Shown one piece after another: positions 51,350 to 59,244 of a stretch of DNA of 64,000 nucleotides. Numbering within the stretch: the stretch's first letter is position 1; each line of letters begins with the position of its first letter. Below the pieces are notes generated by a model. That model was not told the DNA's origin, did not search any database, and saw only the letters and a list, made by a program, of their open reading frames with translations. Origin of the DNA: Caldisericota bacterium (GTDB lineage Bacteria; Caldisericota; JANLFM01); NCBI GenBank assembly GCA_024655865.1, contig JANLFM010000004.1, positions 1-64,000 on the forward strand. Direction: 5' to 3'. The translations under genes and the position numbers were made by a program.

Positions 51350-51985
51350 TTGAACAACGTGATTCAAGAAATGGAAAGTGCGCTTATGCGCATTAAATCT
51401 GTTTTGGGGGCCAAAATTGTCACGGACCAAAAAGGGGAGATCGTGGAAGTTCACGTCCTGGCAACAGACCAGAGAAACCCAAAACAGGTGGTCAGGGATG
51501 TCGAGTCCACCCTGCTCGTGAAATTCGGAAGAAAAGTGGATCACAAAAAAATCGGGGTTGTCCAGCAGAGCGAGAGGGAAGCGGAACATCCTCTGGAAGG
51601 AAGGCTGAAGTTTGTGGGGATTAGCACCATGCCCGGGGAGCAGAACTTCTTCGAAGTCATCCTTAGGGACCCCTCGGGAGTAGAGCATCCCGGACAGGCC
51701 TTCATCCGCGACCCCTTGCAGAGACTCCAGGCTATCGGGCAGGCCGCGATCACCGCCGTAAACCACTTCCTGAATCAGGAAAGGCTGCACCTCCAGGAGG
51801 TTTATGTGCTCAAGACCGTGGAACTGCCCTTCGTTGTTTCCTCGGTTCTTTACCGTGGAAAAAAGGGGAACCTGGTATTGGCCGGCGCGGCACCTGTCCG
51901 AGGAAGCGAGGAGGAAGCAGCAGTGAAGAGCGTTCTGAGCGCTATTAACCGCTTGCTCCCCAAGATCGTGGAGGGAGAAGTTTAA
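51350..51985 (+). CDS. Conserved hypothetical protein, 211 aa
   Basis: I do not recognise a named family. It starts with TTG 51350 ten bases after AGGAGG. The N-terminal 75 residues (VTDQKGEIVEVHVLATDQRN, then VVRDVESTLLVKFG and VDHKKIGVVQQ) have the layout of a small alpha-beta domain that I recall in hypothetical proteins of anaerobic Firmicutes. The rest has two similar halves of beta hairpin plus helix. No membrane segment or signal peptide is present, so it is cytoplasmic. It ends 50 bp before the promoter of the leader RNA and HD genes. Confidence 0.7.
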   Translation: MNNVIQEMESALMRIKSVLGAKIVTDQKGEIVEVHVLATDQRNPKQVVRDVESTLLVKFGRKVDHKKIGVVQQSEREAEHPLEGRLKFVGISTMPGEQNFFEVILRDPSGVEHPGQAFIRDPLQRLQAIGQAAITAVNHFLNQERLHLQEVYVLKTVELPFVVSSVLYRGKKGNLVLAGAAPVRGSEEEAAVKSVLSAINRLLPKIVEGEV

Positions 51986-51999
51986 AATTTTTCGAAAAA

Positions 52000-52028
52000 T
52001 TTACCCCTTGACCTGAATCCTCTATAAT
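52000..52028 (+). promoter_or_regulatory. Promoter of the structured leader RNA and HD genes
   Basis: TTTACC (52000-52005), 17 bp, TATAAT (52023-52028). The predicted start is near 52035, just before the 5' strand of the closing stem at 52038. Confidence 0.6.
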
Positions 52029-52034
52029 CTTTTT

Positions 52035-52241
52035 TCGGACGGCGCATTCTGAAGCGGGAAACTCCCTTGAGCGGAGCGCTTGTTTGGAGAACAAATGAGT
52101 GCGAAAGGGGGTATCCCCATGAGACGCTGGTTAACGAGAGCTCTGTGGTTTGTAGCCACCATCGCTTCCTTGATCCTGGCATCCGGAGCGGACGTAAAGT
52201 GGGGCGGCAGGTAGCGAACGCCTGAGGGGAGTGCGCCGTCT
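52035..52241 (+). ncRNA. Candidate structured leader RNA (about 205 nt)
   Basis: GACGGCGCA (52038-52046) pairs perfectly with TGCGCCGTC (52232-52240), extendable by several pairs. Between them several local hairpins can form: GGGAAACTCCC, AGCG-GAG-CGCT, TTGTT-TGGAG-AACAA, GGGG-GTAT-CCCC, and GTGG-TTTGTAG-CCAC. The 3' side of the closing stem ends ten bases before the ATG of the HD gene, so folding could control its translation. It does not match the riboswitch consensus patterns I know. A micro-ORF lies within it. Confidence 0.5.
52119..52214 (+). CDS. Micro-ORF, 31-aa putative membrane peptide in the leader
   Basis: ATG 52119 to TAG 52214. The peptide starts MRRWLTR, has a hydrophobic stretch (about 8-21) long enough for a short membrane helix, and ends ADVKWGGR. 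Positive residues lead the hydrophobic part, as expected for a small inner-membrane protein. GGGGGT lies about nine bases upstream but is partly paired in a GGGG-GTAT-CCCC hairpin. An in-frame ATG at 52095 is an alternative. It could be a regulatory leader peptide or a small signalling protein. No cysteine or other processing motif stands out. Confidence 0.5.
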   Translation: MRRWLTRALWFVATIASLILASGADVKWGGR

Positions 52242-52250
52242 AATAAAAGG

Positions 52251-53492
52251 ATGAAAAAAGAATTTCCAAAAGGCCTAAAGGTCTATCTGGCGCTGATCAT
52301 CACAGGGGGTTCTGCTGCCCTCTATCTTACTTTCCCTTACTGGCACGCAACTCTTATCTGGGATTATCTAATCTTTGCCCTCATCAGCTATTTTGCCTAT
52401 ATTCTTCTCGTCAAACTTCCAAAGCTCAACGCATACCTTTCCGTGGCCTCCCACATGAACTTCGCAGCACTTTTCCTCTTCGGTCCCTTCGCCATCTGGA
52501 TCCCTGCTCTAACCGGGGCTCTCCCGGATAGCCTCCCCTTAAAGAAACCCTACATTTACCTCTTCAACGGAGCTCAGTTCGCCCTCTCCTACGGCCTGGC
52601 GGCCCTGACTTATTACGGCGCCGGAGGAACTGCCCTCTCTTTATCTTTTGCGGTTCCCATAAAAACCATCCTCCCCGCTCTCCTGAGCGGATTAGTTTAT
52701 TCCTTAGTCAATGTCGGCCTGACTGCAGGAGCGATCTCCTTTGACCAGGGGCCTTTTGTTAAGGTTTTCTGGAACGTCATCAAGTGGGAATTCCCCAACA
52801 TGCTGATCGCCGTCCCCTTCGCCCTCTTTCTGGCCTACATCTTCACCCAGTTAGGCTATCTGGGACTGGCGATCCTCTTTTTCCCCCTGCTCGCCTCCCG
52901 CTATATCTTCCAGGCCTACATTCGTATTCAGGAAACCTATTCCGAGACCGTCCGTGCCCTGATGGCCACGGTGGACAAAAAGTTCGGGCAGCCCGGCCGC
53001 AACCAGAAGGTCTACCAGTACGCGCTCCAGGTTAGCCAGAGTCTGGGTCTTTCCCCGGAGGAAGCTGAAATTTTAGGATATGCCAGCTACTTACGCCACA
53101 TTGGATTAATAGGGATTGAAAACAGCATGCTGGAGTTCACCCTTTCCCAGCCCATCTGGTCTTCGAGCCCCATAGTCGTTAATGCCTTACTTGCTGGCTC
53201 TCAGATCTTGGAGCGGACCGAGACTTTGAAAAGGGCCGCCCCCTTCATCCGGCTACACCATGAAAAATGGGATGGAACTGGCCCCTGGGGTTTGAAGGAG
53301 GAGCAAATTCCTCTCGGGGCGCGCATTATCTCCGCCTGTGAATTCCTGGAGGAATTAGAATACCGTGGAAGTAAAAGGGAGGAAATTTTGAAACACTTGA
53401 GGGAAAGGAGCGGAAAGCATTATGATCCCCGCGTGGTGCAGGCTCTTATTTCCCTTCTGGAAAAGGAGAGAGATGAACAGAAAACTTCTTAA
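52251..53492 (+). CDS. Membrane protein with degenerate HD-GYP domain
   Basis: 413 residues. Seven or eight membrane helices (about 10-225) form a sensor-like module. The C-terminal 185 residues align with HD-GYP phosphodiesterases but the core HD is lost: YASYLRHIGLIGI replaces YLHDIGKIGI. The HHEKWDGTGP segment remains, and the later Asp is replaced in ISACEFLEEL. It is probably unable to hydrolyse cyclic di-GMP and may bind a ligand or pair with the next protein. No ribosome site is visible, and the closing stem of the leader RNA sits just upstream. Confidence 0.85.
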   Translation: MKKEFPKGLKVYLALIITGGSAALYLTFPYWHATLIWDYLIFALISYFAYILLVKLPKLNAYLSVASHMNFAALFLFGPFAIWIPALTGALPDSLPLKKPYIYLFNGAQFALSYGLAALTYYGAGGTALSLSFAVPIKTILPALLSGLVYSLVNVGLTAGAISFDQGPFVKVFWNVIKWEFPNMLIAVPFALFLAYIFTQLGYLGLAILFFPLLASRYIFQAYIRIQETYSETVRALMATVDKKFGQPGRNQKVYQYALQVSQSLGLSPEEAEILGYASYLRHIGLIGIENSMLEFTLSQPIWSSSPIVVNALLAGSQILERTETLKRAAPFIRLHHEKWDGTGPWGLKEEQIPLGARIISACEFLEELEYRGSKREEILKHLRERSGKHYDPRVVQALISLLEKERDEQKTS

Positions 53493-54744
53493 TTACCTTT
53501 TAATTCTCTCCCCGGCACTTTTAATCTCCGGGTGGTACGCATTTTCTCTTGACCCGGGCTCTTTTTTGGGGGTCGTGCCCTTAGCGGTTTTGGCTTTCCT
53601 TTTGCGTTCTCTGGAAGTCTCCTATTTTGGGGAAGTGATTTCCCCCGCAAGCGCCGTCACCCTAACTTCCCTTTTTCTTTTCCCCGCTCCCCAGGCCCTT
53701 GTGGTTCTCTTTGCCTCTCTTCTTGGAGGCCTTGCTTTTCTCCGCTTTTCTCACATCCAAGAGGACGGTTTCCTGAAATCCATAGCCTCCGAACTGGGCG
53801 GTTTCCTTGGGGCTTTGCTCCTCTATCGCCTATATTTCTCATCCCAGTTAATTGGCATCTCGTTAAGCACGTATTCGCCATCTCTTCTCTTGGCCCTGGG
53901 GGCCGTCTTTGGGGGATATGCTCTTACCTCCAGTATCCTTTCTCTCATTAGCTCATTTGTCCTCCGCACCAACTTAAGGGATACCCTGAGAGTGCAGCTT
54001 TCTCCTTTCTATTTCGGCCTCTATTTCGTTCTGGGAGTGAGCCTGCTCCTCCTCGTCCCCACATATTCCGCCTTTGGCGTTTTGGGTTTCCTTTTGGGCT
54101 TGATTCCCCTGTGCGTATTTTTCTTCGCCTCCAAGCTCTACTTTCACACTCAGGAGGTTTACCGTCAGTCCCTGCGCTCGCTGGTGGGAGTGATCGAAGC
54201 TATGGACCCCTACACGCACGGCCATTCCGACCGGGTGGCCCTCATCTCCCTGGAAATTGGGAAGAGGATGCCTTTATCCCAGTCAAGGTTGCAGCTTTTG
54301 GAATACGCCGCCTACTTGCACGACATGGGCAAGGTCTCCATCGATCCCGCCATCCTGCGCAAACCGGAGGCCCTTTCCGAGGAGGAGTGGAAAATAATCA
54401 GATCCCACCCTGAGGATGGGGTAGAGATCCTGCGAAACGTGAAATTCCTCAAGCCCATCCTGCCCTGGATCGAGCATCATCATGAGAAGGCCAACGGTAC
54501 CGGTTACCCCTCGGCTCTCCCCTTAAAGAAAATTCCCCTGGAAGCCCGAATTATCACCCTGGCCGATGCCTTTGACGCCATGATCTCCAATCGCCCTTAT
54601 CGCCCTGCCCTGACGGTGGAGGAGGCGAAAAGGGAGATCGAGAGGAACACGGGTTCCCAGTTCGACCCCATCCTGGTGAAAAAGTTCCAGCGCCTCATAA
54701 AGAAAAAGGACTTTGTTCGGACGCTGGGCTTCCCCAAGCGGTGA
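53473..54744 (+). CDS. Membrane HD-GYP phosphodiesterase
   Basis: 423 residues from ATG 53473 (AAGGAGAG upstream), overlapping the previous gene by 20 bp. About eight membrane helices (5-235) are followed by an intact HD-GYP domain: DPYTHGHSDRVA, AYLHDMGKVSID, RSHPEDG, EHHHEKANGTGYP and TLADAFDAM with YRPAL. Such domains hydrolyse cyclic di-GMP. The membrane part resembles that of the upstream degenerate protein, so the pair may be duplicated genes forming a hetero-oligomer. A promoter for pyr follows directly. Confidence 0.9.
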   Translation: MNRKLLNYLLILSPALLISGWYAFSLDPGSFLGVVPLAVLAFLLRSLEVSYFGEVISPASAVTLTSLFLFPAPQALVVLFASLLGGLAFLRFSHIQEDGFLKSIASELGGFLGALLLYRLYFSSQLIGISLSTYSPSLLLALGAVFGGYALTSSILSLISSFVLRTNLRDTLRVQLSPFYFGLYFVLGVSLLLLVPTYSAFGVLGFLLGLIPLCVFFFASKLYFHTQEVYRQSLRSLVGVIEAMDPYTHGHSDRVALISLEIGKRMPLSQSRLQLLEYAAYLHDMGKVSIDPAILRKPEALSEEEWKIIRSHPEDGVEILRNVKFLKPILPWIEHHHEKANGTGYPSALPLKKIPLEARIITLADAFDAMISNRPYRPALTVEEAKREIERNTGSQFDPILVKKFQRLIKKKDFVRTLGFPKR

Positions 54745-58190: not shown

Positions 58191-58574
58191 ATGATGAGAG
58201 CAAGGGCTTTCCAGAATATTTTTGCTCTTTTTATCCTGGCTGGAGCTCTGGTTTTTGGCTTCCTGCCAAGAAGCGATTTGTTTCCTATCAAGGTGGACAT
58301 TTACATTCAGGGTGACACTTTCACCTTCCGAGAGATCGAGAGCGATTTCGAGGAGGGGGTCCGTGCCCTGGACATCGTTGTGGACAACAGCTTTTCGGCC
58401 TCGGCCTTTTACGGGGATCTGCTCCTCACGCCAGGCCAACACTACCTCGTCTTTCATTACAAGTACCGGGGGGAACTTCTGGATAGCCGTGATTTGAACT
58501 TAGAGCCTTCCGGACATAGCGCCATCAGGGTTGACCTCAACCGCACGAGCATTCTCAACGTGGAGGCGAAATAG
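58191..58574 (+). CDS. Hypothetical membrane-anchored or exported protein, 127 aa
   Basis: I do not recognise the family. A hydrophobic N-terminal segment (about 8-26) preceded by Arg residues looks like a signal anchor or signal peptide without a lipobox. The rest (about 30-127) is beta-rich, with patterns such as VDIYIQGDTFTFREIESDF and HYLVFHYKYRG, suggesting an extracytoplasmic beta-sandwich. The stop is one base before the rhomboid start, so they form one transcript and may share an envelope function. Two consecutive ATGs could be the start. Confidence 0.65.
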   Translation: MMRARAFQNIFALFILAGALVFGFLPRSDLFPIKVDIYIQGDTFTFREIESDFEEGVRALDIVVDNSFSASAFYGDLLLTPGQHYLVFHYKYRGELLDSRDLNLEPSGHSAIRVDLNRTSILNVEAK

Positions 58575-58575
58575 C

Positions 58576-59244
58576 ATGGTGCTTCCCATCTATGATTTAA
58601 ACAGAAGAAGGTCCTTTCCCTTTATCACTCTGACGCTGATTGCCTCTTGCATAATAGTTTTTATCTACCAGCTCACCCTGGGGCTCTCTTCTGAGGAGGG
58701 CAACCGTTTTGTGACGCTCTACGGGGCGGTCCCCGCATTGATCCTTCAGGGACAGAACATCTCCTCCATCTTCAGCTCCATGTTCCTGCACGGTGGCTGG
58801 CTCCATCTGATCGGAAATATGTTTTTCCTCTGGGTTTTTGGCGACAACGTGGAAGATTTCCTGGGACCTGTGCGCTACACCCTTTTCTACTTGCTCTCTG
58901 GAGTTGCTGCAGCCTACAGCTACGTTCTCTTCTCAGGGAACTACCCCTATACACCCATGATTGGAGCCTCTGGGGCGATATCCGGGGTCATGGGAGCTTA
59001 CATTTATTTCTTCCCCAGAGCACCGATAATCACGCTGATTCCCCTGGGAATTTTCTCAAGGGTGATCCCCCTTCCTGCCTGGATCTACCTCTTAATCTGG
59101 TTCGGCTCGCAGTTCCTGATCGCTCCTTCGGAAGGCGTTGCGGTTCAGGCCCACATTGGAGGTTTCCTGGCCGGAATTGCTCTGGCGATCATCTTTAGCT
59201 TAGGTAAACGCCCCACCCCATCCGGGGGTCAGGTCTTGCAATAA
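58576..59244 (+). CDS. Rhomboid family intramembrane serine protease
   Basis: 222 residues from ATG 58576 (GGAGG nine bases upstream). Six or seven membrane helices with the rhomboid residues: FLHGGWLHLIGNMFFLWVFGDN, the catalytic Ser in GASGAISGVMGAY, and His in VQAHIGGFLAG. It cleaves membrane proteins within helices. The last five codons (GQVLQ) and the stop codon are formed by a GGGGTCAGGTCTTGCAAT repeat, so the original C-terminus has been replaced or extended by the element. The tail lies after the last helix and should not affect activity. Confidence 0.9.
   Translation: MVLPIYDLNRRRSFPFITLTLIASCIIVFIYQLTLGLSSEEGNRFVTLYGAVPALILQGQNISSIFSSMFLHGGWLHLIGNMFFLWVFGDNVEDFLGPVRYTLFYLLSGVAAAYSYVLFSGNYPYTPMIGASGAISGVMGAYIYFFPRAPIITLIPLGIFSRVIPLPAWIYLLIWFGSQFLIAPSEGVAVQAHIGGFLAGIALAIIFSLGKRPTPSGGQVLQ

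Follow-up and report, generated by a model that had tools for sequence, protein, structure and literature searches.

In the SHP/Rgg, ComS/XIP and enterococcal sex pheromone systems, a hydrophobic precursor of 20–35 residues is encoded by a gene adjoining that of its receptor and carries a short, C-terminal active part; enterococcal sex pheromones are cut from signal peptides. AgrD, of the cyclic-lactone AgrD/AgrB systems, is a small amphipathic membrane precursor, and CydX, KdpF and AcrZ are each one short hydrophobic helix encoded beside a membrane partner. RpfG-type quorum sensing, as is generally known, uses an HD-GYP phosphodiesterase as the output of a cell–cell signal. Structured leaders with upstream open reading frames (uORFs) have also been reported, with candidates such as ilvB-II (PMC11109978). 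Here we describe a locus that resembles each of these in part. It lies in a 64,000-nucleotide stretch of a Caldisericota bacterium (contig JANLFM010000004.1, positions 1 to 64,000; hereafter the window) and comprises a short open reading frame (the micro-ORF), held within a structured leader RNA, and HD1, the membrane HD gene that follows. The window features described are all on the forward strand.

The micro-ORF (MRRWLTRALWFVATIASLILASGADVKWGGR; 52119–52214) runs for 31 codons from an ATG at 52119 to a TAG stop at 52212–52214. An initial annotation of this DNA had described it as a membrane-peptide-like frame; it is real, with homologues across phyla. Two more genomes of the window's family carry the leader before the same HD gene, and one of them (G003) shares 72% identity with the window over the leader and 71% over the peptide, which there reads MSRNWLSRVIWFIASIATLILASGADLKWGGH. 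In another genus of the family (G002 and G004), the gene in the position of RNPK, the gene upstream of the leader, is followed by an apparent proS, and the locus has no HD gene, leader or peptide. Searching the phylum with the pattern GGACGGCGNATTCTGAAGC and 3 mismatches gave three exact sites, the remaining matches being chance-like, and a search of a plasmid collection gave no match.

A profile made from the three close peptides returned mostly chance matches beyond the phylum, yet it revealed a tandem array in another Caldisericota family, where MKWGARVLAFILSVMVIALTVLADLKWH is encoded by six identical ORFs, each with the Shine–Dalgarno (SD) sequence AAAGGAGG. This array (L054:2583–3219; period 104 bp, 6.1 copies, 100% matches), whose repeating unit is a complete 28-codon gene, is followed directly by genes for a membrane HD-GYP protein and a DUF5317 protein. 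A promoter with 12/12 consensus matches stands between the array and the HD start, so that array and HD gene are possibly separate transcription units. In 14 of 22 contigs from other Caldisericota, the sequence breaks off no more than about 410 nt before the HD gene, in several cases within a peptide unit, as expected if identical repeats had collapsed. Terminator-like hairpins followed by T runs were seen by eye between the micro-ORF and HD gene at L091, L092, L157 and L162, which suggests that most transcripts of the micropeptide in these lineages do not extend into the HD gene.

Using DUF5317 genes as beacons for further loci, we found related ORFs before HD genes in Aerophobetes, Bipolaricaulota, Chloroflexota, Bacillota (Carboxydocella, Thermincola, Tissierellales and others), probable Thermus relatives and others; examples from outside Caldisericota are MKAKLIKVLFAIAGLLLAGGANIRWG, MKWGEKVTKRLGVRGLYVVLAITLLAILSGAHHKWG, MQKVLKVVLALIAVVLVGGANARW and MKKLLMALLSLAALALASGAHISWV. 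In the window clade, the DUF5317 gene sits elsewhere in the genome, away from HD genes and with no adjoining peptide (L099 and L101). Among HD genes preceded by 200 nt or more of sequence, 35/39 had a micropeptide ORF in front of them, compared with 0/176 other genes at the same loci and 13/3,900 shuffled leaders. The four misses were L156 (MTARVVKILLAIVSLIIAGGARFSA, with the Trp lost), L161, which ends GGGKYNW, and L159 and L163, in which the ORF is further upstream. When Caldisericota peptides were withheld from the profile, the window micro-ORF still ranked first of 1,838 segments (E = 1.2e-7; next, 0.63). Pfam and NCBIfam searches with ten micropeptides returned no credible family. Judged from conservation at the sequence level, these comparisons show that the micro-ORF is a selected protein-coding gene and that its family is widespread and linked to MASE9-type HD/HD-GYP genes.

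In the window, the leader lies downstream of a sigma-70-like promoter, TTTACC-17-TATAAT (52000–52028), which the initial annotation had proposed and which matches the consensus at 10/12 positions (1 found, against 0.2 expected from shuffles); its TATAAT is kept in both relatives. The proposed long-range closing stem is also real, and is a 14 bp helix (P1) in which the 5′ arm at 52037–52050 (GGACGGCGCATTCT) pairs with 52228–52241. Folding of 52034–52250 gave −87.4 kcal/mol (z −2.9), with none of 200 shuffles as good. Within P1, the inner stem P2 (52056–52068 with 52105–52117) is separated by an internal loop, holding the AGCGRA motif AGCGGA (52070–52075), from the hairpin P3 (52076–52102; 52076–52086 with 52092–52102). 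These two elements, upstream of the ORF, are well defined, but the small hairpins that had been drawn within the micro-ORF are unsupported, because that stretch is conserved as protein. The 3′ arm of P2 contains the micro-ORF SD sequence, AAGGGGG (52105–52111), which is predicted by energy folding to be buried in the stem, with pairing probabilities of 0.84–1.0. HD1 starts at an ATG at 52251, 9 nt past P1, and its lack of a visible ribosome site was confirmed, in that AAAAGG directly abuts the start codon and leaves no properly spaced site. A terminator search of 51900–52300 found none.

RNPK precedes the leader in two lineages of another phylum (A and B) and in lineages C (Bacillota), D (Chloroflexota, seen for L142 only) and E (the window clade). 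In these RNPK-type operons, a stem encloses the micro-ORF at the same position with arm sequences that differ between lineages: GGACGGCGCATTC/GAGTGCGCCGTCT in E, ATAGGTCGGTGA/TCACCGACCTAT in A, AGGGTGGGCCAACAG/CTGTTGGCCCACCCT in B and CAAACCGGCGGGGG/CCCCCGCCGGTTTG in L142. P1 was scored as the best ungapped helix, total duplex energy having been dropped as too noisy. The scores for lineages A–E were 38, 40, 30, 29 and 38, compared with 20–21 when 3′ sides were swapped between lineages, with the caveat that only 4/9 loci of lineages C and D beat every swap and that L164 and L169 had no clear P1. Other Caldisericota, Bipolaricaulota and Aerophobetes scored at swap level. The initial annotation had looked to covariation among homologues, and this is present in P1 of lineage B: in a sequence-based alignment, 13/22 pairs had changed on both sides and 95.4% of cells could pair (slid controls, 42–51%), with a covariation score of 0.522 against 0.260 when shuffled. 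Lineage A agrees, with fewer changes, and in the window's three-genome clade the changes are one-sided only. AGCGRA occurs at 1.0–2.3 copies per leader in lineages A–E, against about 0.1 in shuffles, and at zero copies in leaders of other Caldisericota, Bipolaricaulota and Aerophobetes.

Loci from a domain-wide RNPK search provided an out-of-sample comparison. Where a MASE-HD gene came next (L221, L222, L226 and L228), AGCGRA motifs and a Trp-type ORF were present, the ORFs of L226 and L228 (MDLILELVTFFGRAGW and MSYVSSVIVALCALVMGDSANWG) being read by eye and both missing the strict pattern; where another gene came next (L215, L216, L218, L219, L223 and L224), motifs and ORF were both unseen, and L217 had the motifs followed by masked sequence. 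Comparison of homologues shows, for RNPK-type operons including the window, an RNA fold that covaries, carries AGCGRA motifs and encloses the micro-ORF. Rfam 15, at gathering and relaxed thresholds, matched only raiA RNA and tRNAs elsewhere for the window and homologous leaders, in keeping with the view that no known riboswitch class is present. The leader had also been thought to control second-messenger genes; it does adjoin probable cyclic di-GMP (c-di-GMP) genes, but nothing supports ligand sensing by the RNA, and since it is the micro-ORF ribosome site that the inner stem covers, control of peptide synthesis would be the more direct reading. On one point our interpretation differs from the earlier one, as the most deeply conserved element is the peptide rather than the RNA.

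The family shares a plan of a basic N-terminus, a hydrophobic core and A-x-x-x-W, followed by 0–3 residues. Ala is found at W-4 in 60/62 distinct peptides, G or S at W-6 in most, and K, R or S is favoured at W-1. The features expected of a signal peptide are thus present, with a positive n-region, a hydrophobic h-region and small residues at −3/−1 of a candidate cut site. Variation is concentrated at the tip: across the 18 loci of lineage A, residue differences per pair were 6% in the leader part and 57% in the three residues before Trp, and codon differences replaced the residue in 16% and 79% of cases, respectively. By analogy, a conserved precursor with a variable tip held between two fixed residues fits the pattern of pheromone families. 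The window peptide has no Cys and no run of control codons.

HD1 (52251–53492; 413 aa) combines a MASE9 sensor with a degenerate HD-GYP domain. Pfam gave HD_5 at 67.5 bits and MASE9 (PF20972) at 36 bits against a cut-off of 24.3; MASE9 falls below the cut-off in some HD homologues. Although HD_5 is present, RHIG replaces HDIGK and GYP is missing, whereas the neighbouring HD2 (53473–54744; HD_5 120.4 bits) is an intact membrane HD-GYP protein by alignment, with YLHDMGK ... HHEKANGTGYP. The HD2 start was taken as an ATG with an SD sequence; the first ATG of the frame is at 53422. A structure model of HD1 (predicted local distance difference test score, pLDDT, 85.8) matched HD-GYP structures over residues 222–408 (Z about 21), and over residues 31–204 matched the S-components RibU, FolT, ThiT and BioY, with Z scores of 10–13, which are suggestive only, and root mean square deviations of 3.1–4.1. 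S-components of energy-coupling factor (ECF) transporters bind small ligands from outside the cell, and the likeness of the model to them makes an outward-facing ligand pocket in HD1 plausible.

We hypothesized that the locus is a peptide-signal/sensor module in which a Trp peptide is sensed by the MASE9 domain, and consider the chances of this evenly balanced. The micro-ORF product would be a signal-peptide-like precursor that inserts in the membrane N-in/C-out. Signal peptidase I, which is present in the window genome, or another membrane protease would cleave it behind the near-invariant Ala and release a Trp peptide of 4–7 residues, in the window about DVKWGGR. The S-component-like MASE9 domain of HD1 would sense this peptide and relay its state to the intact HD-GYP phosphodiesterase next door, which would alter c-di-GMP, with the RNA fold setting the amount of peptide translated. 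A gene for a rhomboid-like membrane protease, recognized by eye, lies a few genes downstream (58531–59244) and is a conceivable processing enzyme, although nothing links it to the peptide. Export, cleavage after Ala, MASE9 recognition, the effect on c-di-GMP and RNA control of peptide synthesis are steps that we infer. The module reading is supported by the linkage to HD genes, the leave-phylum-out profile, the joint loss in G002/G004 and the occurrence in unseen loci only where an HD gene follows RNPK; by the conserved precursor with its diversified tip, the six-ORF array, the 12/12 promoter and the precursor-type anatomy; and by signal peptidase I, P1 covariation and the ECF S-component-like sensor model. 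Several points count the other way. The Trp and the Ala/Gly were in part built into the search pattern, and the L156 homologue lacks Trp; relaxed constraint would account for the variable residues as well as diversification does; for a helical domain, a Z of about 13 is weak; c-di-GMP cleavage by HD1 itself cannot be assumed, given its degenerate state; and secretion, cleavage, binding and a change in c-di-GMP all rest on inference. The broader proposal, that many phyla signal through a 4–7 residue Trp pheromone, an ECF-S-like HD-GYP-type sensor and a covarying RNA controlling precursor translation, is more tentative, and we lean somewhat against it.

The main rival is that the product stays uncleaved, as a small membrane subunit or regulator bound to the transmembrane MASE9 domain in the manner of CydX, KdpF or AcrZ. 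Tight linkage to one membrane protein, a single hydrophobic helix, co-loss with the HD gene and a Trp conserved at the helix end would all suit such a subunit; identical-copy arrays and variation focused on the tip fit a released signal better, and some lineages have separate transcription units, and we regard a subunit as possible though rather unlikely. Translation of a leader peptide might instead control the HD gene in cis, by attenuation or coupling with help from the P1/P2 fold. In favour of this, HD1 begins just 9 nt past P1 with no spaced ribosome site of its own, and the only strong SD belongs to the micro-ORF and is covered by the fold. However, the leader holds no terminator, six-ORF arrays occur with an HD promoter downstream of them, and conservation at the amino acid level extends over phyla that have no RNA element. 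In other Caldisericota, Bipolaricaulota and Aerophobetes the peptide occurs without this RNA, at times as tandem arrays, and apparently forms a transcription unit by itself, so that it is unlikely to be only a leader peptide, and we consider control in cis improbable.

Slightly more improbable still is that the RNA is primarily a riboswitch or a protein-binding element (for example, for the RNPK protein), with the peptide secondary. The covariation, the AGCGRA motifs and the finding of the RNA so far mainly downstream of RNPK speak for this, but where RNPK stands without an HD gene, RNA and peptide are both missing, which means that RNPK alone does not bring the RNA with it, and the peptide occurs elsewhere without the RNA, which has no Rfam relative. 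A riboswitch as sole function was set aside, given that the peptide is present without RNA in several lineages. Pure leader-peptide and riboswitch readings are disfavoured together because they leave the arrays and the RNA-free lineages unexplained. A type I toxin of the ldr/ibs sort would also be a small hydrophobic ORF in tandem repeats, but the micropeptide keeps to a single sensor gene across many phyla and is lost together with it, which is not usual for such toxins, and we judge this very improbable indeed.

RNPK (51350–51985) encodes a 211-aa protein with no Pfam, NCBIfam or Protein Data Bank (PDB) family match and no solved relative. The protein aligns with homologues whose genes precede the leader in Bacillota, Chloroflexota and others; one homologue (L212) has a weak LeuA-dimerisation-like C-terminus (25.8 bits against 24.9), and a second paralogue in the window genome (contig C44, 74690–75307) is followed by an apparent metK. 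In several loci the gene string is comFC – raiA RNA – hpf – RNPK – leader – MASE-HD, with the raiA/ModT RNA (RF03072) matched by Rfam a few genes upstream at L177:589–795, L188:348–564, L191:496–719 and L146:1002–1204. ModT has been reported to modulate c-di-GMP in Clostridioides difficile (PMC11706538), and the module puts this enigmatic RNA on the same string of genes as a probable c-di-GMP phosphodiesterase. It is a separate RNA further upstream, and the leader itself has no match to the RF03072 model.

A search of open-licence papers on DUF5317, MASE9 and peptides with HD-GYP proteins found no description of the module, and the peptide family and RNA element are not in Pfam, NCBIfam or Rfam as searched. 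To our knowledge, no peptide signal acting directly on c-di-GMP enzymes has been established, and we know of little on cell–cell signalling in Caldisericota, Bipolaricaulota, Aerophobetes or thermophilic Bacillota. The module offers a defined peptide, a candidate receptor and an RNA, and the genomes carrying it include those of cultured species. Compared with ilvB-II-type uORF leaders (PMC11109978), it likewise has a structured leader and a conserved small ORF before the main gene, but in this case a long-range stem surrounds the entire ORF, whose product is conserved between phyla and also occurs where the RNA is missing. CydX, KdpF and AcrZ are usually single genes, in contrast to the arrays and hypervariable tip found here, and the RpfG system uses a fatty-acid signal and a histidine kinase, whereas at this locus the candidate signal is a peptide and the sensor domain is joined directly to the HD domain. 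Unlike AgrD, the peptide has no Cys, no acidic C-terminal tail and no NCBIfam match, and AgrB is absent from the window genome and from G008. The SHP/Rgg-type systems share no sequence family with the module, whose partner is a membrane MASE9-HD protein; no Rgg/ComR-type helix-turn-helix (HTH) regulator adjoins the micro-ORF, its neighbours being RNPK and the HD gene. Lacking the AgrD/AgrB features tested and differing from SHP/Rgg in its partner, the module would nevertheless work as short-pheromone systems do, with a small hydrophobic precursor encoded beside its receptor and an active part expected at the C-terminus.
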